DNA from: Bacillaceae bacterium IKA-2
GTDB lineage: Bacteria; Bacillota; Bacilli; Bacillales; Anaerobacillaceae
NCBI GenBank assembly: GCA_031761875.1
Contig: CP134492.1
Coordinates: 3,286,001 to 3,350,000, forward strand
Length of the DNA: 64,000 bases
Direction: 5' to 3'
The notes below the pieces were generated by a model that saw only the letters and a program-made list of their open reading frames with translations, made no database searches and had not been told where the DNA came from. Below, one piece after another: positions 1,400 through 6,041 of the stretch (within the stretch, counting starts at the first letter, position 1; every line of letters starts with the position of its first letter). The position numbers and the translations under genes are program-made.

Positions 1400-1790
1400 C
1401 CGAAAATAGAAAACTCCCTCCATCCTCAAAGGACGAAGAGAGTAAATTCGCGGTACCACCTTTGTTTGCCATCAATTAGAAAAATGGATTCACACTAGTA
1501 ATAGCGAAATCCATGTACGATCAGCAAAAATAAAGTATCTTTTTTGATCGTACAACAAGCTGTGTCAATGGCACACTTGATTGTTTTTAACGGTTATAAA
1601 CCGGCTTCTTCTACTTGGAAAGACTATGCTTGTCGCCTCTTTAGACGCTTGCCTTAGTTTTTCTGATACTCTCACATTTTAATTCCTAAAGTGTAATAGC
1701 GGTTCAAAGAAGCTGCTCCAGGGTGACTTTCCATCTTTAGCTCCGAAAAAATCTCTCAGCAATGTTACTGTTAAAGGATGTCAAAATGTT
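1400..1790 (-). promoter_or_regulatory. T-box riboswitch of valS (GUC valine specifier)
   Basis: The T-box sequence AGGTGGTACCGCG reads on the minus strand at 1449-1462. It is followed by a 12-bp terminator stem (about 1407-1441, several G-U pairs) and a run of T, 70-130 bases before valS. Upstream on the same strand are a stem I-like stretch with AGTA and GAGAGA motifs and then GGAAAGTCACCCTGGAG. The GTC at complement 1725-1727 is preceded by GAAA, followed by a purine and then a CCTGGAG-like stretch, which is the usual context of a specifier codon, and GTC codes for Val. Uncharged tRNA-Val should stabilise the antiterminator. The 5' boundary is uncertain. Confidence 0.88.
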
Positions 1791-2143
1791 CGATAAACAA
1801 AACAGTCGAATTTCTTCGTTGGCTCTGTTTATCGTTTTTAAACACGCACTTTTTGTAACAATGATTTTTCTCTCTGCTGGTATTACAGATGTACTCTTCC
1901 CAATCTCAGCATATTTATATTTAATTGCATTCGAAAGCTTAGTATGATGCTCTTCACAAAATTAGTAATCATTGTTGTCAAGTTTTTCAACGAGGCTATG
2001 ATCATCCTCTTATTAAAAATAGTTCTTATACTGTATTAACATTTTACATGCAAGAGTCAAAAATCGTCAATAGTTGAAACAAAAATTTACTAACATTATT
2101 GCCGATAATCCGATTTCCATACACTTTTAGGAAATATTCATTC

Positions 2144-2171: not shown

Positions 2172-2229
2172 ATTACAGAAAATAACAGAAAGGAGGAGGA
2201 AATTCATGTTAAAAAAAGGTAAATATCGA

Positions 2230-2234
2230 CTTCC
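2230..2234. repeat. Left copy of 5-bp target-site duplication (CTTCC)
   Basis: CTTCC directly flanks the left IS end and recurs at 4827-4831 directly after the right end. A short target duplication of this size is typical of IS21-family transposition. Confidence 0.75.
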
Positions 2235-2270
2235 TGTGACCGTCAAGTAGAAATGAACACTTTTCGCCAA

Positions 2271-3035
2271 TTAACTTTGAACACTTTCTCCACCAAAAAT
2301 GGAAGATCGGTGCTTCATTCGATAACTGTCATTATCTAAGTGAATAACTTCAGCTCGGTGAATGATCCTATCTAAAATGGCTGCTGTAATACTTGAATCG
2401 CCCATCAACTCGCCCCAATCACTTGGGGCCTTATTTGATGTGAGTATAATAGAAGCATTATTATATAAATAGTTTATTAAATGGAAAAATAGGTTGGCTT
2501 CACGTTGATCCATTGCCATAAACATAAGATCATCAATAATCACTAAATTTGAATTTCTAATTCTGCTCATTCTAGTCTGTGACTTTCGAGTGATTTCTTC
2601 TGTTTTTAACGTATGGATTAAATCACCCATAGAAATAAACGAAACTTTATATCCGCGGTTGATTGCCTCAATCCCTAATCCTATTGCTAATAAAGTTTTC
2701 CCTGCACCTGGCGGTCCCAATAAAATAATGTTGTACAGCTGCTCTACCCATGTTAGCTCTTTTAATTGATTAAACTGTTTTTTACTTAATGATCTCTGTT
2801 CATCAAGATTAAAGTCGATCATCGTTTTATGATACGGAAATGTAGCCCATTTTAAGCGTTTTTCTGTTTGTTTTTCTTCCCGGCGCTTTTGTTCAAATGT
2901 TAATATCGTTAGTAGAAATGATGTATAGGAAACTTCGTTTGATTCTGCTTCTTTAATTAGTCTTGTTATACTAGTAGATGTTTCCGATAATCGGAGTGTC
3001 TTTAATAACTCCTGCACTTGTGCAAACTGACTCAT
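2271..3035 (-). CDS. istB: IS21-family transposition helper ATPase (IstB-like)
   Basis: A DnaC/IstB-like AAA+ ATPase of 254 residues that assists the IstA transposase in target choice and strand transfer. The Walker A motif GPPGAGKT is at about residues 107-114 and Walker B NLVIIDDL at about 163-170; a sensor-1-like ILTSN follows. The start is taken as ATG 3035, which overlaps the istA stop codon as TGATG, the usual istA-istB coupling; one more upstream codon (TTG) is open. The length is normal for the family and no stop or frameshift is seen. It ends 36 bp inside the left IS end. Confidence 0.93.
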   Translation of the reverse strand: MSQFAQVQELLKTLRLSETSTSITRLIKEAESNEVSYTSFLLTILTFEQKRREEKQTEKRLKWATFPYHKTMIDFNLDEQRSLSKKQFNQLKELTWVEQLYNIILLGPPGAGKTLLAIGLGIEAINRGYKVSFISMGDLIHTLKTEEITRKSQTRMSRIRNSNLVIIDDLMFMAMDQREANLFFHLINYLYNNASIILTSNKAPSDWGELMGDSSITAAILDRIIHRAEVIHLDNDSYRMKHRSSIFGGESVQS

Positions 3036-4618
3036 CAAACATCACCTGCCAATACTGACAAATAATCATTTATATCTCTGGTTGCTGGTTTCGTATTCAC
3101 TAACGATTGGTTGTTTTCATGAAGTATTTTAGTTGTTTCATCGTTATCAGTTGGAGGTGTAACAATCATTTGTCGTTGTCGGTCAAGGTACTGAACCATA
3201 TCGATAAAATCTGTTGCACAAAATAGTTTCCGGTTAACACATTCTTTTAAAGCTTCATTAATAATTGACTGCTCATGACATTTTATTTCTTTTGATATCA
3301 GCTGGAGTTGATCCCTAATGTATCGCGGAAACGCTGATTTAATCGTTTCTAGAAAAGAGAGTGCCATATCTGTATTTTCGAATTTTTCTGCTACTGACTG
3401 TATATAAGCTGTAACCCCTTTTGTTCGATCACGCGTATGTTGTCGATCTTGAATTAATTCTCCTTTTGCAACAGACAGTTTATGTTTCGCAAATATTTCC
3501 CCTGTGTCAACTTCAACGATCATTAAATAGGCATCGTCGACTTCAGATATTGCTACTTCTGGATACTTTTCAAATGTTCCGAGAGGAACTGAGTAGCGAT
3601 TAGATTTATACCAAATCGTATTGTCCTTTCGAACCGTCCTTGTTATAATAGATTGGAGTTTAGTTTGACTACCTGCAGGTAAACTGCCAGTAGCCGTTGA
3701 GACTGGTCGTAAGTGTTGCTTTTCAAGGAGAAACACTTCGCACGGTCTTTTTTTTGTTGTGTTATGAATCTTATAATTACCCGTACGCTTCAGCCACGCT
3801 AACCCATCTTCATTCCATTTATCAATATTTTGAAATATCCGATGTTTGGAAAAGTTCACTTTCACAAAACCTACCATATTTTCAATTTTTCCCTTTGTCT
3901 CTGGATCTGCTTTACGACAAACCCAAATCGTTAACTTCCGATCTTCTTTGTACGCTTGAAACTCTTTTGTTAGAATTAAATCACCTCCATTTTCGCTAAC
4001 GACAAGAAGCGCATCTTGATCATAAACGAGTTCCCTAGGAATTCCAGCAAAATATTGAAAGGCATTTTCATGGGTACGTATAACATCTTTGGTGGTGAAA
4101 GGCCGATCCACCCATTCTTTGTATTTGTATCTAGAGTGGGATAGAACAAAAGCTATGAAATAAAGTCTGACCGTTTTTCCCACGATTGTCTTTTGAACTG
4201 TTTGTCCAAAATCTACTTGAATTTGTTCGCCCATCGGTAACTCTGCCACGGCTTCATAATCACGCATAGTTGTTTCTTTAGAAATATCATATGATAGTCG
4301 TAACTCTCTTACATAGGCTCTTACTGTACTTTCAGAAACATCTTTTACCTGTTTCTTTTCTTGTAGCCAATCATAAACCTGGGCAGCTGTCATATCAGGA
4401 TGTGAATACAACCACGAAAGGATCAATTCTTTGAATGGGTCTAGCTTTTTTCTTCTACTTTCAAGTTGAACCACCCATTCACTCATGTCACTTGGCGTAC
4501 TTTTTAAATAGCGATAAACCGTTGTTCTTGAAACCCCTAACTTTCCAGCTACTTTCGATTTACTGAATCCTTGCTTTAGTAATTGCTGAATTTCCATATA
4601 CATTTGCCACTTATCCAC
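3035..4618 (-). CDS. istA: IS21-family DDE transposase (IstA-like)
   Basis: Transposase of about 527 residues. An N-terminal helix-turn-helix (QGFSKSKVAGKLGVSRTTVYRYL) should bind the IS ends. The rve-type catalytic core follows: VDFGQ (first Asp) at about 140, VYDQD near 205 (second Asp) and a C-terminal Glu in KGKIENMVGFVK near 250. The frame is open back to 4633, but GTG at 4618 is preferred because GGAGG lies six bases before it. No internal stop is present. Its TGATG overlap with istB and the flanking target duplication support an intact, recently inserted element. Confidence 0.92.
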   Translation of the reverse strand: MDKWQMYMEIQQLLKQGFSKSKVAGKLGVSRTTVYRYLKSTPSDMSEWVVQLESRRKKLDPFKELILSWLYSHPDMTAAQVYDWLQEKKQVKDVSESTVRAYVRELRLSYDISKETTMRDYEAVAELPMGEQIQVDFGQTVQKTIVGKTVRLYFIAFVLSHSRYKYKEWVDRPFTTKDVIRTHENAFQYFAGIPRELVYDQDALLVVSENGGDLILTKEFQAYKEDRKLTIWVCRKADPETKGKIENMVGFVKVNFSKHRIFQNIDKWNEDGLAWLKRTGNYKIHNTTKKRPCEVFLLEKQHLRPVSTATGSLPAGSQTKLQSIITRTVRKDNTIWYKSNRYSVPLGTFEKYPEVAISEVDDAYLMIVEVDTGEIFAKHKLSVAKGELIQDRQHTRDRTKGVTAYIQSVAEKFENTDMALSFLETIKSAFPRYIRDQLQLISKEIKCHEQSIINEALKECVNRKLFCATDFIDMVQYLDRQRQMIVTPPTDNDETTKILHENNQSLVNTKPATRDINDYLSVLAGDV

Positions 4619-4826
4619 CTTTTTCCTCCACACTGTTGAAAATCTAAGAAACTACTTATCATCATACAGTGTCTTGGTCTTATTTTAAATTTATAGAGAA
4701 AAGGAAATTGTTTCTATAGGTGATGGCCCTACGGTCCATCACCTATAGAAGTGCTACCCTTCCTCCTGGAAAATAAGTGTTCATTCTTATCTGGCGGAAA
4801 CTGTCCAATTTAGTTTATCACTCACA

Positions 4827-4831
4827 CTTCC
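4827..4831. repeat. Right copy of 5-bp target-site duplication (CTTCC)
   Basis: Identical to 2230-2234 and directly adjacent to the right IS end (TCACA on the plus strand). Confidence 0.75.
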
Positions 4832-4995
4832 TCTTTGGTTACGGAGAGCTCGAGATGTTGGCTATCAATTTTTAATTCCATTAACAATTTTTCAACTTGC
4901 ACGGACCGTTTTTTTTCCATCAACGATTGATGTTGCCATACTTGTAATTTTTGTCATTTTATATCTAACCTAGGTTACTGGGATATTGTAATAAG

Positions 4996-5036
4996 AAAAA
5001 GCAGTCAATCTATAGCTCAGATTGACTGCTTTTTTC
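4996..5036. terminator. Bidirectional terminator between ysxE and the disrupted small gene
   Basis: A perfect 11-bp stem (GCAGTCAATCT with AGATTGACTGC) flanked by A and T runs on both sides. On the minus strand the stem includes the last codons of ysxE; on the plus strand it lies 27 bases after the stop of the disrupted small gene. Confidence 0.85.
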
Positions 5037-6041
5037 TTGTTTGAGTAAATGATTGTAAATAAAATGATTTACTCTAGTTAGGGTAATAATTCGTTTTTCT
5101 AGCATTTGTACATACTGTAACTCAGTAATACTGCCATCACGCTTGTTGTAATGATCGATACAATGAAAAATAAGTTCTGGATAAATTAAATAACTTGCAA
5201 ATAATTTTTTTTCTTCTTCTTCAAGAACTAAAAAATTTTGATATGTTCTTAACCACTCAGCGCCTTGATCCTCACTCCATAACGTGTATTGAAATGACTT
5301 GCGAAATGAAATGGCAAGGTCTCGTGCTGGAGTGTCTAACATAGCTTTTTCAAAATTAAACACATATCCATACCCGTTTGGATGGTAAAAAATATGGGAG
5401 CGATCAAGCTTACCGTGGCAGAGAACTGCCCGAAAGCTCTGTTTTTCAAGGCAATGATCATACCACTCTTTTAAATGCTTAGTAGCTGCATCTGCCATCA
5501 TTTGAATACGGCTGAGATGAGTAAGGTAAGTAAGTTCAAATGGTGAGATGAAGGTTTTTCGTTCTGCTTCTTCTGCAAAATACTCCATTTTTAAGCGCCG
5601 CTTTTCCCAACGTCTCAGTAATTCTTGATATGAATGATCAATCGTTTCCTTTGAAAAATCTTGGATTTTTACTGTTAATCCATGTAATTTCCCCAATTGT
5701 TTAAAGACGATTTTTTCTTTGTTTTCTTCAGGAAATTTTTCTTCTTTCCAAAACCATGGCTGCAAGTAATAGGTTTTGCTATCTCGAGTAATTAGAAAGT
5801 CACCGTACTTTGTTGGAATGATTGGGACAACTTGTTTAAAATTAATTTTATCAAGTCTTTTCATCACATGCGTGAACCAATTAGCTTGCTCTTGTGTCAG
5901 ATCAGCTTCCTTTAAGGCAAACGTTCCTTTTTGTGAAACGATCTTTTTTACTTTTCCAAAATGTTCAATTTTTTCTGGATATAAATCATATTGAAAAAGT
6001 ATGTGCCCAATAGAGTTTTGGGGGGCTTTATTGATAATCAT
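5010..6041 (-). CDS. ysxE: Spore coat-associated kinase-fold protein YsxE
   Basis: A 343-residue member of the CotS/YsxE family, a branch of the aminoglycoside-phosphotransferase/choline-kinase fold linked to spore coat assembly. A putative ATP-lysine segment (KGTFALKEAD, about 37-46) and the catalytic-loop region CHGKLDRSHIF (about 211-221) are recognisable. The loop lacks the usual Asp after HG and the usual Asn, and the later metal-binding DxE/D is FNFEKA, so the protein is probably not an active kinase. The start overlaps the stop of the upstream 309-aa gene (ATGA), and both follow spoVID, so a mother-cell sporulation operon is likely. The gene ends within a terminator stem. Confidence 0.85.
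   Translation of the reverse strand: MIINKAPQNSIGHILFQYDLYPEKIEHFGKVKKIVSQKGTFALKEADLTQEQANWFTHVMKRLDKINFKQVVPIIPTKYGDFLITRDSKTYYLQPWFWKEEKFPEENKEKIVFKQLGKLHGLTVKIQDFSKETIDHSYQELLRRWEKRRLKMEYFAEEAERKTFISPFELTYLTHLSRIQMMADAATKHLKEWYDHCLEKQSFRAVLCHGKLDRSHIFYHPNGYGYVFNFEKAMLDTPARDLAISFRKSFQYTLWSEDQGAEWLRTYQNFLVLEEEEKKLFASYLIYPELIFHCIDHYNKRDGSITELQYVQMLEKRIITLTRVNHFIYNHLLKQEKSSQSEL

Follow-up and report, generated by a model that had tools for sequence, protein, structure and literature searches.

An IS21 element splits a conserved small gene of probable late-sporulation role between valS and ysxE in Bacillaceae bacterium IKA-2

We analysed a window of 64,000 nucleotides from the genome of Bacillaceae bacterium IKA-2 (contig CP134492.1, positions 3,286,001 to 3,350,000), in which a complete IS21-family insertion sequence splits a small gene located between valS and ysxE. 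A first-pass annotation of the window had described the interrupted gene as a 56-codon frame for a small membrane protein of sporulation type. The gene belongs to a conserved family with members of about 62 residues. It carries a sigma-K-type promoter motif, lies beside the same neighbors in most relatives and, within the class sampled, occurs only in genomes with a match to spoIVA. We consider it highly probable that this is a family of spore-former hairpin membrane proteins with late mother-cell expression under sigma-K, one gene of which is split here by IS21.

Removal of the element (positions 2235-4826) together with one copy of its CTTCC target duplication leaves an open frame on the plus strand, which starts at ATG 2206 and translates as MLKKGKYRLPLWLRR...YLT. 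The strong ribosome binding site claimed in the first-pass annotation, AAGGAGGAGG, is present at 2190-2199 (plus strand), and the genes of relatives show 5 to 8 of 8 matches to AAGGAGGT ahead of the chosen start. The 5' part of the gene (2206-2234, plus strand) encodes MLKKGKYRL and two bases of codon 10, and includes the CTTCC copy at 2230-2234. The 3' part (4832-4970, plus strand) encodes the predicted helical hairpin region, has homologs in relatives and is matched by the joined protein at E = 4.5e-26 in a search of the own genome. That search returned this one match only, and thus no second copy to replace the split gene.

The joined frame ends at a premature TAG (4971-4973), behind which codons for V-T-G-I-L and a TAA (4989-4991) persist as remains of a conserved C-terminus (4971-4991, plus strand). 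The TAG aligns with a tyrosine in all six same-genus relatives, where Val-x-Gly and two hydrophobic residues come next; V-T-G-I-L therefore fits the Y-V-x-G-hydrophobic-hydrophobic ending of each of the six. A profile search likewise reads through one TAG at this locus. In a redundant set of 159 sequences, the own one included and many nearly identical, 155 have 20 residues from a conserved aspartate to the C-terminus and one each has 21, 18 and 17, compared with 14 in the joined frame of the window. In 29 relatives the protein is 60-64 amino acids long, as counted from start codons chosen by a script that scores ribosome site and length and favours about 62 residues. The continuous frame of the first-pass annotation was thus correctly seen as a gene, but its 56 codons represent a truncated gene of about 62 codons, because the TAG removes six residues of a C-terminus of nearly fixed length. 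As judged from the alignments, the gene very likely carries two lesions, the IS21 insertion and a nonsense codon. Four features had escaped the first-pass annotation: the premature TAG, the length of about 62 codons, the persisting sigma-K-type promoter and the conservation of the gene.

Translation from the native start would run through just 14 codons before reaching a stop within the element. No ATG, GTG or TTG occurs in the frame of the 3' part between the last in-frame stop of the element (4746-4748) and the TAG, this interval offering rarer codons only, such as CTG, ATA and ATT. Because 14 codons remain at the 5' end and the 3' part has no usual start codon, the product of the gene has very probably been lost in this genome. 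The target duplication makes it unlikely that excision of the element would restore the gene exactly.

Orthologs of the small gene were found in 58 of 60 relatives (E <= 7e-5), including all six of the same genus, and all 58 are free of internal stops. Among these relatives, genome G028 lacks an ortholog and G024 has a chance-level match only (E = 1.35); a profile search for the family found nothing in G024 and a match at E = 0.36 in G028. In a collection of named genomes, 298 of 319 candidate stretches encode relatives of the protein. The 80 named loci retained come mostly from entries under Cytobacillus, Bacillus, Geobacillus, Anoxybacillus, Sutcliffiella, Rossellomorea and similar names; Pseudomonas, Paenibacillus and Sporosarcina each appear in one title. 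Carriers of the ortholog include Bacillus methanolicus PB1 (L063) and Geobacillus thermodenitrificans (L102). A search of plasmids found no plasmid-borne copies.

All 80 named loci and 53 of the 58 order-level genomes have the gene between valS and ysxE, in the orientation opposite to that of its two neighbors, in agreement with the position given in the first-pass annotation; extra DNA of up to about 3 kb sometimes separates the three genes. The five order-level exceptions keep one of the two neighbors, and two of them (L135 and L141) lie close to a contig end. At 20 loci sampled across the class, both neighbors are present within the fetched stretch in 9 cases, one in 8 and neither in 3. The homolog search and the synteny check proposed in the first-pass annotation were both run, and relatives proved to carry homologs of the joined product as well as the intact frame at the same locus.

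The sequence of the family is well conserved. Thirteen diverse members share the invariant residues P11, R15, P27, F31, Q32, R35, T36, P40, D44 and L48, and thirty closer members have W13, Q23, P27, Q32, R35, T36, P40, T41, D44 and V45 in common. An AlphaFold2 model of the relative at locus L064 predicts helices at residues 12-38 and 42-59 (pLDDT 83.7, pTM 0.58), and hydrophobicity was judged by eye from the sequence alongside this model. The membrane assignment of the first-pass annotation accordingly stands as a prediction from this two-helix model and the reading of the sequence. No Pfam or NCBIfam family matches the product of the window, and the 13 members give weak matches only (best E 0.06 in Pfam and 0.22 in NCBIfam). 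Foldseek comparison with the PDB gave 15 matches at E <= 10 and none at E <= 0.001, with helical proteins, a phage small terminase among them, as the best. A sequence search of solved structures returned four chains at E 3.4-3.8, none of them a credible match.

A sigma-K-type promoter lies upstream of the small gene at 2144-2171 on the plus strand. Sigma-K promoters have the consensus AC-N16/17-CATAnnnTA, and the window matches this pattern exactly, with AC at 2144-2145, a 17-nt spacer and CATATAGTA at 2163-2171. We searched 59 upstream regions, one per genome with the own genome included and kinship among genomes ignored, for AC-N15-17-CATAnnnTA within 130 nt of the gene. The motif was found in 34 of them, whereas in 300 shuffles the count averaged 0.61 and never exceeded 4. 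Exact spacers of 15, 16 and 17 nt occur in 3, 10 and 23 regions, respectively (these counts can overlap), other spacings in 2 to 10 of the 59, and the motif on the other strand in 3. In a larger but redundant set with many near-identical sequences the motif occurs in 78 of 110 regions (shuffles mean 1.0, maximum 4); 34 of 59 is the fairer figure. Simple patterns for sigma-E, sigma-G and sigma-A were found in none of the 59 regions and a sigma-F pattern in two. A sigma-E-like CATACACT at 2118-2125, spotted by eye, was dropped for want of a -35 element at the right distance. The sigK gene of this genome is a single open frame that scores above its family cut-off.

The distribution of the family follows that of spoIVA. 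Among 299 genomes of the class, the family was found in 104 and a spoIVA match (E <= 0.001) in 211; all 211 matches were used, 208 of them exceeding the family cut-off. All 104 family-positive genomes match spoIVA, and none of the 88 genomes without a spoIVA match has the family. In one genus, G103 has both the family and spoIVA, whereas G062 is without the family and matches spoIVA only weakly (5.6e-10). The sporulation character of the gene, a guess in the first-pass annotation, thereby gains backing from both the sigma-K-type motif and the distribution.

Under the proposed mechanism, the small gene would have its own promoter in the valS-ysxE interval, from which RNA polymerase with sigma-K would transcribe it at a late stage in the mother cell. 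Its product would have a basic N-terminus followed by two helices joined at an invariant proline, and would probably be placed as a membrane hairpin in the mother-cell or outer forespore membrane, where it may act in coat or spore maturation. IS21 would have inserted after base 2234, probably recently, leaving 14 readable codons, and the nonsense codon would in addition remove the conserved C-terminus. The effects of losing the gene would be expected to fall on late spore maturation, the coat or germination more than on the formation of spores. Two relatives have spoIVA and ysxE without it, and for this reason sporulation probably remains possible in its absence, the defect being one of spore quality.

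Several observations weigh against this reading. The exact sigma-K pattern is missing in 25 of the 59 order-level genes and in two of the six same-genus relatives (L004 and L006), and is found at only 7 of the 20 class-level loci. The signal thus fades with distance, which may reflect either promoter drift or a strict search pattern. The co-occurrence counts ignore the relatedness of the genomes. As many as 107 class genomes with a spoIVA match lack the family, and the small gene is missing from G024 and G028 despite the presence of spoIVA and ysxE. These genomes make the gene, by its distribution, an accessory gene of spore-formers rather than a universal or core one. Finally, dN/dS is 0.12-0.38 in pairs with the window copy and 0.045-0.22 in intact same-genus pairs; the two ranges overlap and leave the loss undated, and the 54 codons compared are too few to decide the order of the lesions.

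The history of the locus allows two further readings. A chance reading of DNA between valS and ysxE would account for a joined frame so short and for the missing Pfam or NCBIfam model, and nothing else was found in its favour. Orthologs in 58 of 60 relatives, the invariant residues and the nearly fixed tail length refute such an origin, to which we assign practically no probability. By contrast, it is a plausible course of events, if short of a probable one, that the gene no longer worked or was no longer needed when IS21 arrived in this lineage, the TAG having arisen first and the element landing in a relic. Prior death would fit the in-frame TAG at 4971-4973, the somewhat raised dN/dS of pairs containing the window copy and the two relatives of spore-former genotype that do without the gene. 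However, the promoter, the ribosome site and the frame before the TAG are intact, and the old frame contains a single stop, whereas a gene long dead would be expected to show more damage.

With regard to function, a role in mother-cell lysis or as a pore, in the manner of a holin-like hairpin, would suit a late mother-cell-type promoter and a two-helix hairpin model. We think it improbable, given the charged and polar residues conserved within the first helix, the lack of a holin family among the Pfam matches (PHROGs were not searched) and the lack of any Foldseek match to the PDB at E <= 0.001. A sharper form of the preferred reading, in which the late mother-cell hairpin protein would be a membrane anchor or adaptor for YsxE/CotS-family kinases at the outer forespore membrane or coat base, is a possibility that we hold only tentatively. 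The small gene adjoins ysxE at all 80 named loci, and three of seven borderline remote homolog loci, from two genera, lie beside CotS-family kinase genes. On the other hand, ysxE and the small gene converge and so do not form one operon. Among the 20 class-level loci, five have valS without a ysxE match in the fetched stretch and three have neither. Furthermore, four remote homologs lie elsewhere without ysxE, and the homology of the remote set is not certain.

The remote set comes from a search of 398 genomes of the phylum, of which 14 match: seven from the own order (own genome included) and seven borderline cases outside the class. The best of these seven has E = 1.7e-6 and the others 2.5e-4 to 9.4e-4, with about 0.4 genomes expected by chance at E <= 0.001. 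All seven contain P-[NT]-x-x-D-[VI]-L-I-L, with Asn in six and Thr in L199. At L198 and L202, which belong to one genus, a CotS-family kinase gene flanks the small frame on either side (124 to 134 bits, short of the family cut-off of 172.7); at L204, from another genus, it adjoins one such gene at 247.1 bits, above that cut-off. No valS match was found in the neighborhood of these kinase-adjacent homologs. The other four (L199, L200, L201 and L203, from one family) are located between pnp and rsmH and have no ysxE match. At L199, the sole locus tested for mraZ, this gene also lies between pnp and rsmH. Adjacency to CotS-family kinase genes suggests, but does not show, a joint role with YsxE-related kinases. 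The fullest version of this idea, in which a family of about 62-residue hairpins from spore-forming Bacilli, with remote relatives in other Bacillota, would be the membrane partner of YsxE/CotS kinases and the present genome its natural knockout, seems to us rather unlikely.

The element itself spans 2,592 bp (2235-4826, unstranded) with ends TGTGA/TCACA (TGTGAC...CTCACA), and the 5-bp CTTCC duplication flanks both ends at 2230-2234 and 4827-4831 (plus strand). Duplications of 4-8 bp are typical of the IS21 family, whose insertion proceeds by the IstA/IstB pathway. On the minus strand, istB (2271-3035) encodes the helper ATPase (PF01695, 1.2e-67; NF038214, 245.8 bits against a cut-off of 200) and istA (3035-4633) encodes a transposase of 532 amino acids (NF033546, 200.7 bits against a cut-off of 160). 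Both frames are open, and the end of istA overlaps istB at TGATG (3033-3037). We take D141, D205 and E251 of IstA, assigned by motif, to be candidate catalytic residues. The terminal inverted repeats are imperfect (36-nt arms, 75% complementarity), and an internal direct repeat of 23 nt starts at 2241 and 2265 (74%). IstA, IstB, the 5-bp duplication and imperfect terminal repeats with internal repeats are all features of IS21 membership, and the element is complete with intact genes, as the first-pass annotation had it. The 4,424,890-base single contig of this genome contains six full copies, 100% identical and each flanked by a perfect 5-bp duplication (TCTAG, CTTCC, AGGGG, CAGCT, CCAAG and CTCCT). 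Identical copies with perfect duplications argue for recent movement, in line with the recent insertion claimed in the first-pass annotation. The three best plasmid relatives of the element are 67-72% identical and come from Cytobacillus, Geobacillus and Metabacillus.

Three other copies in the genome also split long frames, namely a 557-residue sensor-like, a 311-residue aldo/keto reductase-like and a 372-residue glycosyltransferase-like frame (L031, L034 and L036; named by reading). An inverted repeat of 18 bp with 94% complementarity and a 3-nt loop (4712-4750, unstranded) is located between the istA start and the right end of the element and may shield istA against outside transcription. 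A lone 102-bp fragment of the left end, 97% identical, lies at L037 1501-1602 (G000:C1:2263959-2264060) and is perhaps a relic of an older copy.

As for the neighbors, valS (minus strand, 1-1327) is represented in the window by its N-terminal 442 codons, a stop-free open frame named by reading, and diverges from the small gene. Its T-box leader (1426-1916, minus strand) matches RF00230 at 75.5 bits (E = 2.2e-16), below the gathering score of 93; the leader has long insertions and gives no Rfam match at the gathering threshold. The convergent ysxE (5010-6041, minus strand) encodes a spore coat kinase-family protein (TIGR02904, 295.1 bits against a cut-off of 263.55). In the same-genus relative G003 an ABC transporter-like gene pair lies between the small gene and valS (L131 5328-7225), comprising by reading a 407-amino acid permease-like and a 224-amino acid ATPase-like protein. 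Gaps of similar size (2.7-2.9 kb) occur at L132-L134 of the same genus, and the gap in the window measures 0.9 kb without the ABC pair.

The small spore gene is apparently undescribed. No title or abstract opening found in a literature search deals with a small protein encoded between valS and ysxE; the search did not extend to supplements or to most subscription papers. In the available parts of a survey of sporulation genes across the group (PMC3533761), the gene is not mentioned. The name yszA presumably belongs to this neighborhood. Retention in 58 of 60 relatives, mostly at one location, a promoter of late-sporulation type in many of these and absence from Pfam and NCBIfam make the gene a good candidate for a spore gene that has been overlooked. 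The window offers a natural loss-of-function allele, and the two relatives without the gene provide further comparisons. The gene also adjoins ysxE, whose transposon mutants (ysxE::Tn) in one species give normal-looking spores yet show a strong sporulation defect, according to PMC12700454, which also states that the B. subtilis ysxE homolog is not needed for efficient sporulation.

Compared with known systems, the insertion is ordinary. The element shares with the IS21 family an overlapping istA-istB pair, TG...CA ends with repeated terminal motifs and 5-bp duplications, and shows no notable difference from known members. The interrupted gene resembles the small sigma-K-dependent sporulation membrane proteins of Bacillus, which are short and hydrophobic, and has, like them, a sigma-K-type promoter in many members. 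In the class sample, the family is confined to genomes matching spoIVA. It differs in that it matches no named family, has its own signature around FQ..RT...P..D and occupies the position between valS and ysxE. In most relatives it neighbors ysxE of the spoVID-ysxE locus (TIGR02904 / TIGR02906), but in contrast to the genes of this kinase operon it lies on the opposite strand, outside the operon and behind a promoter of its own.

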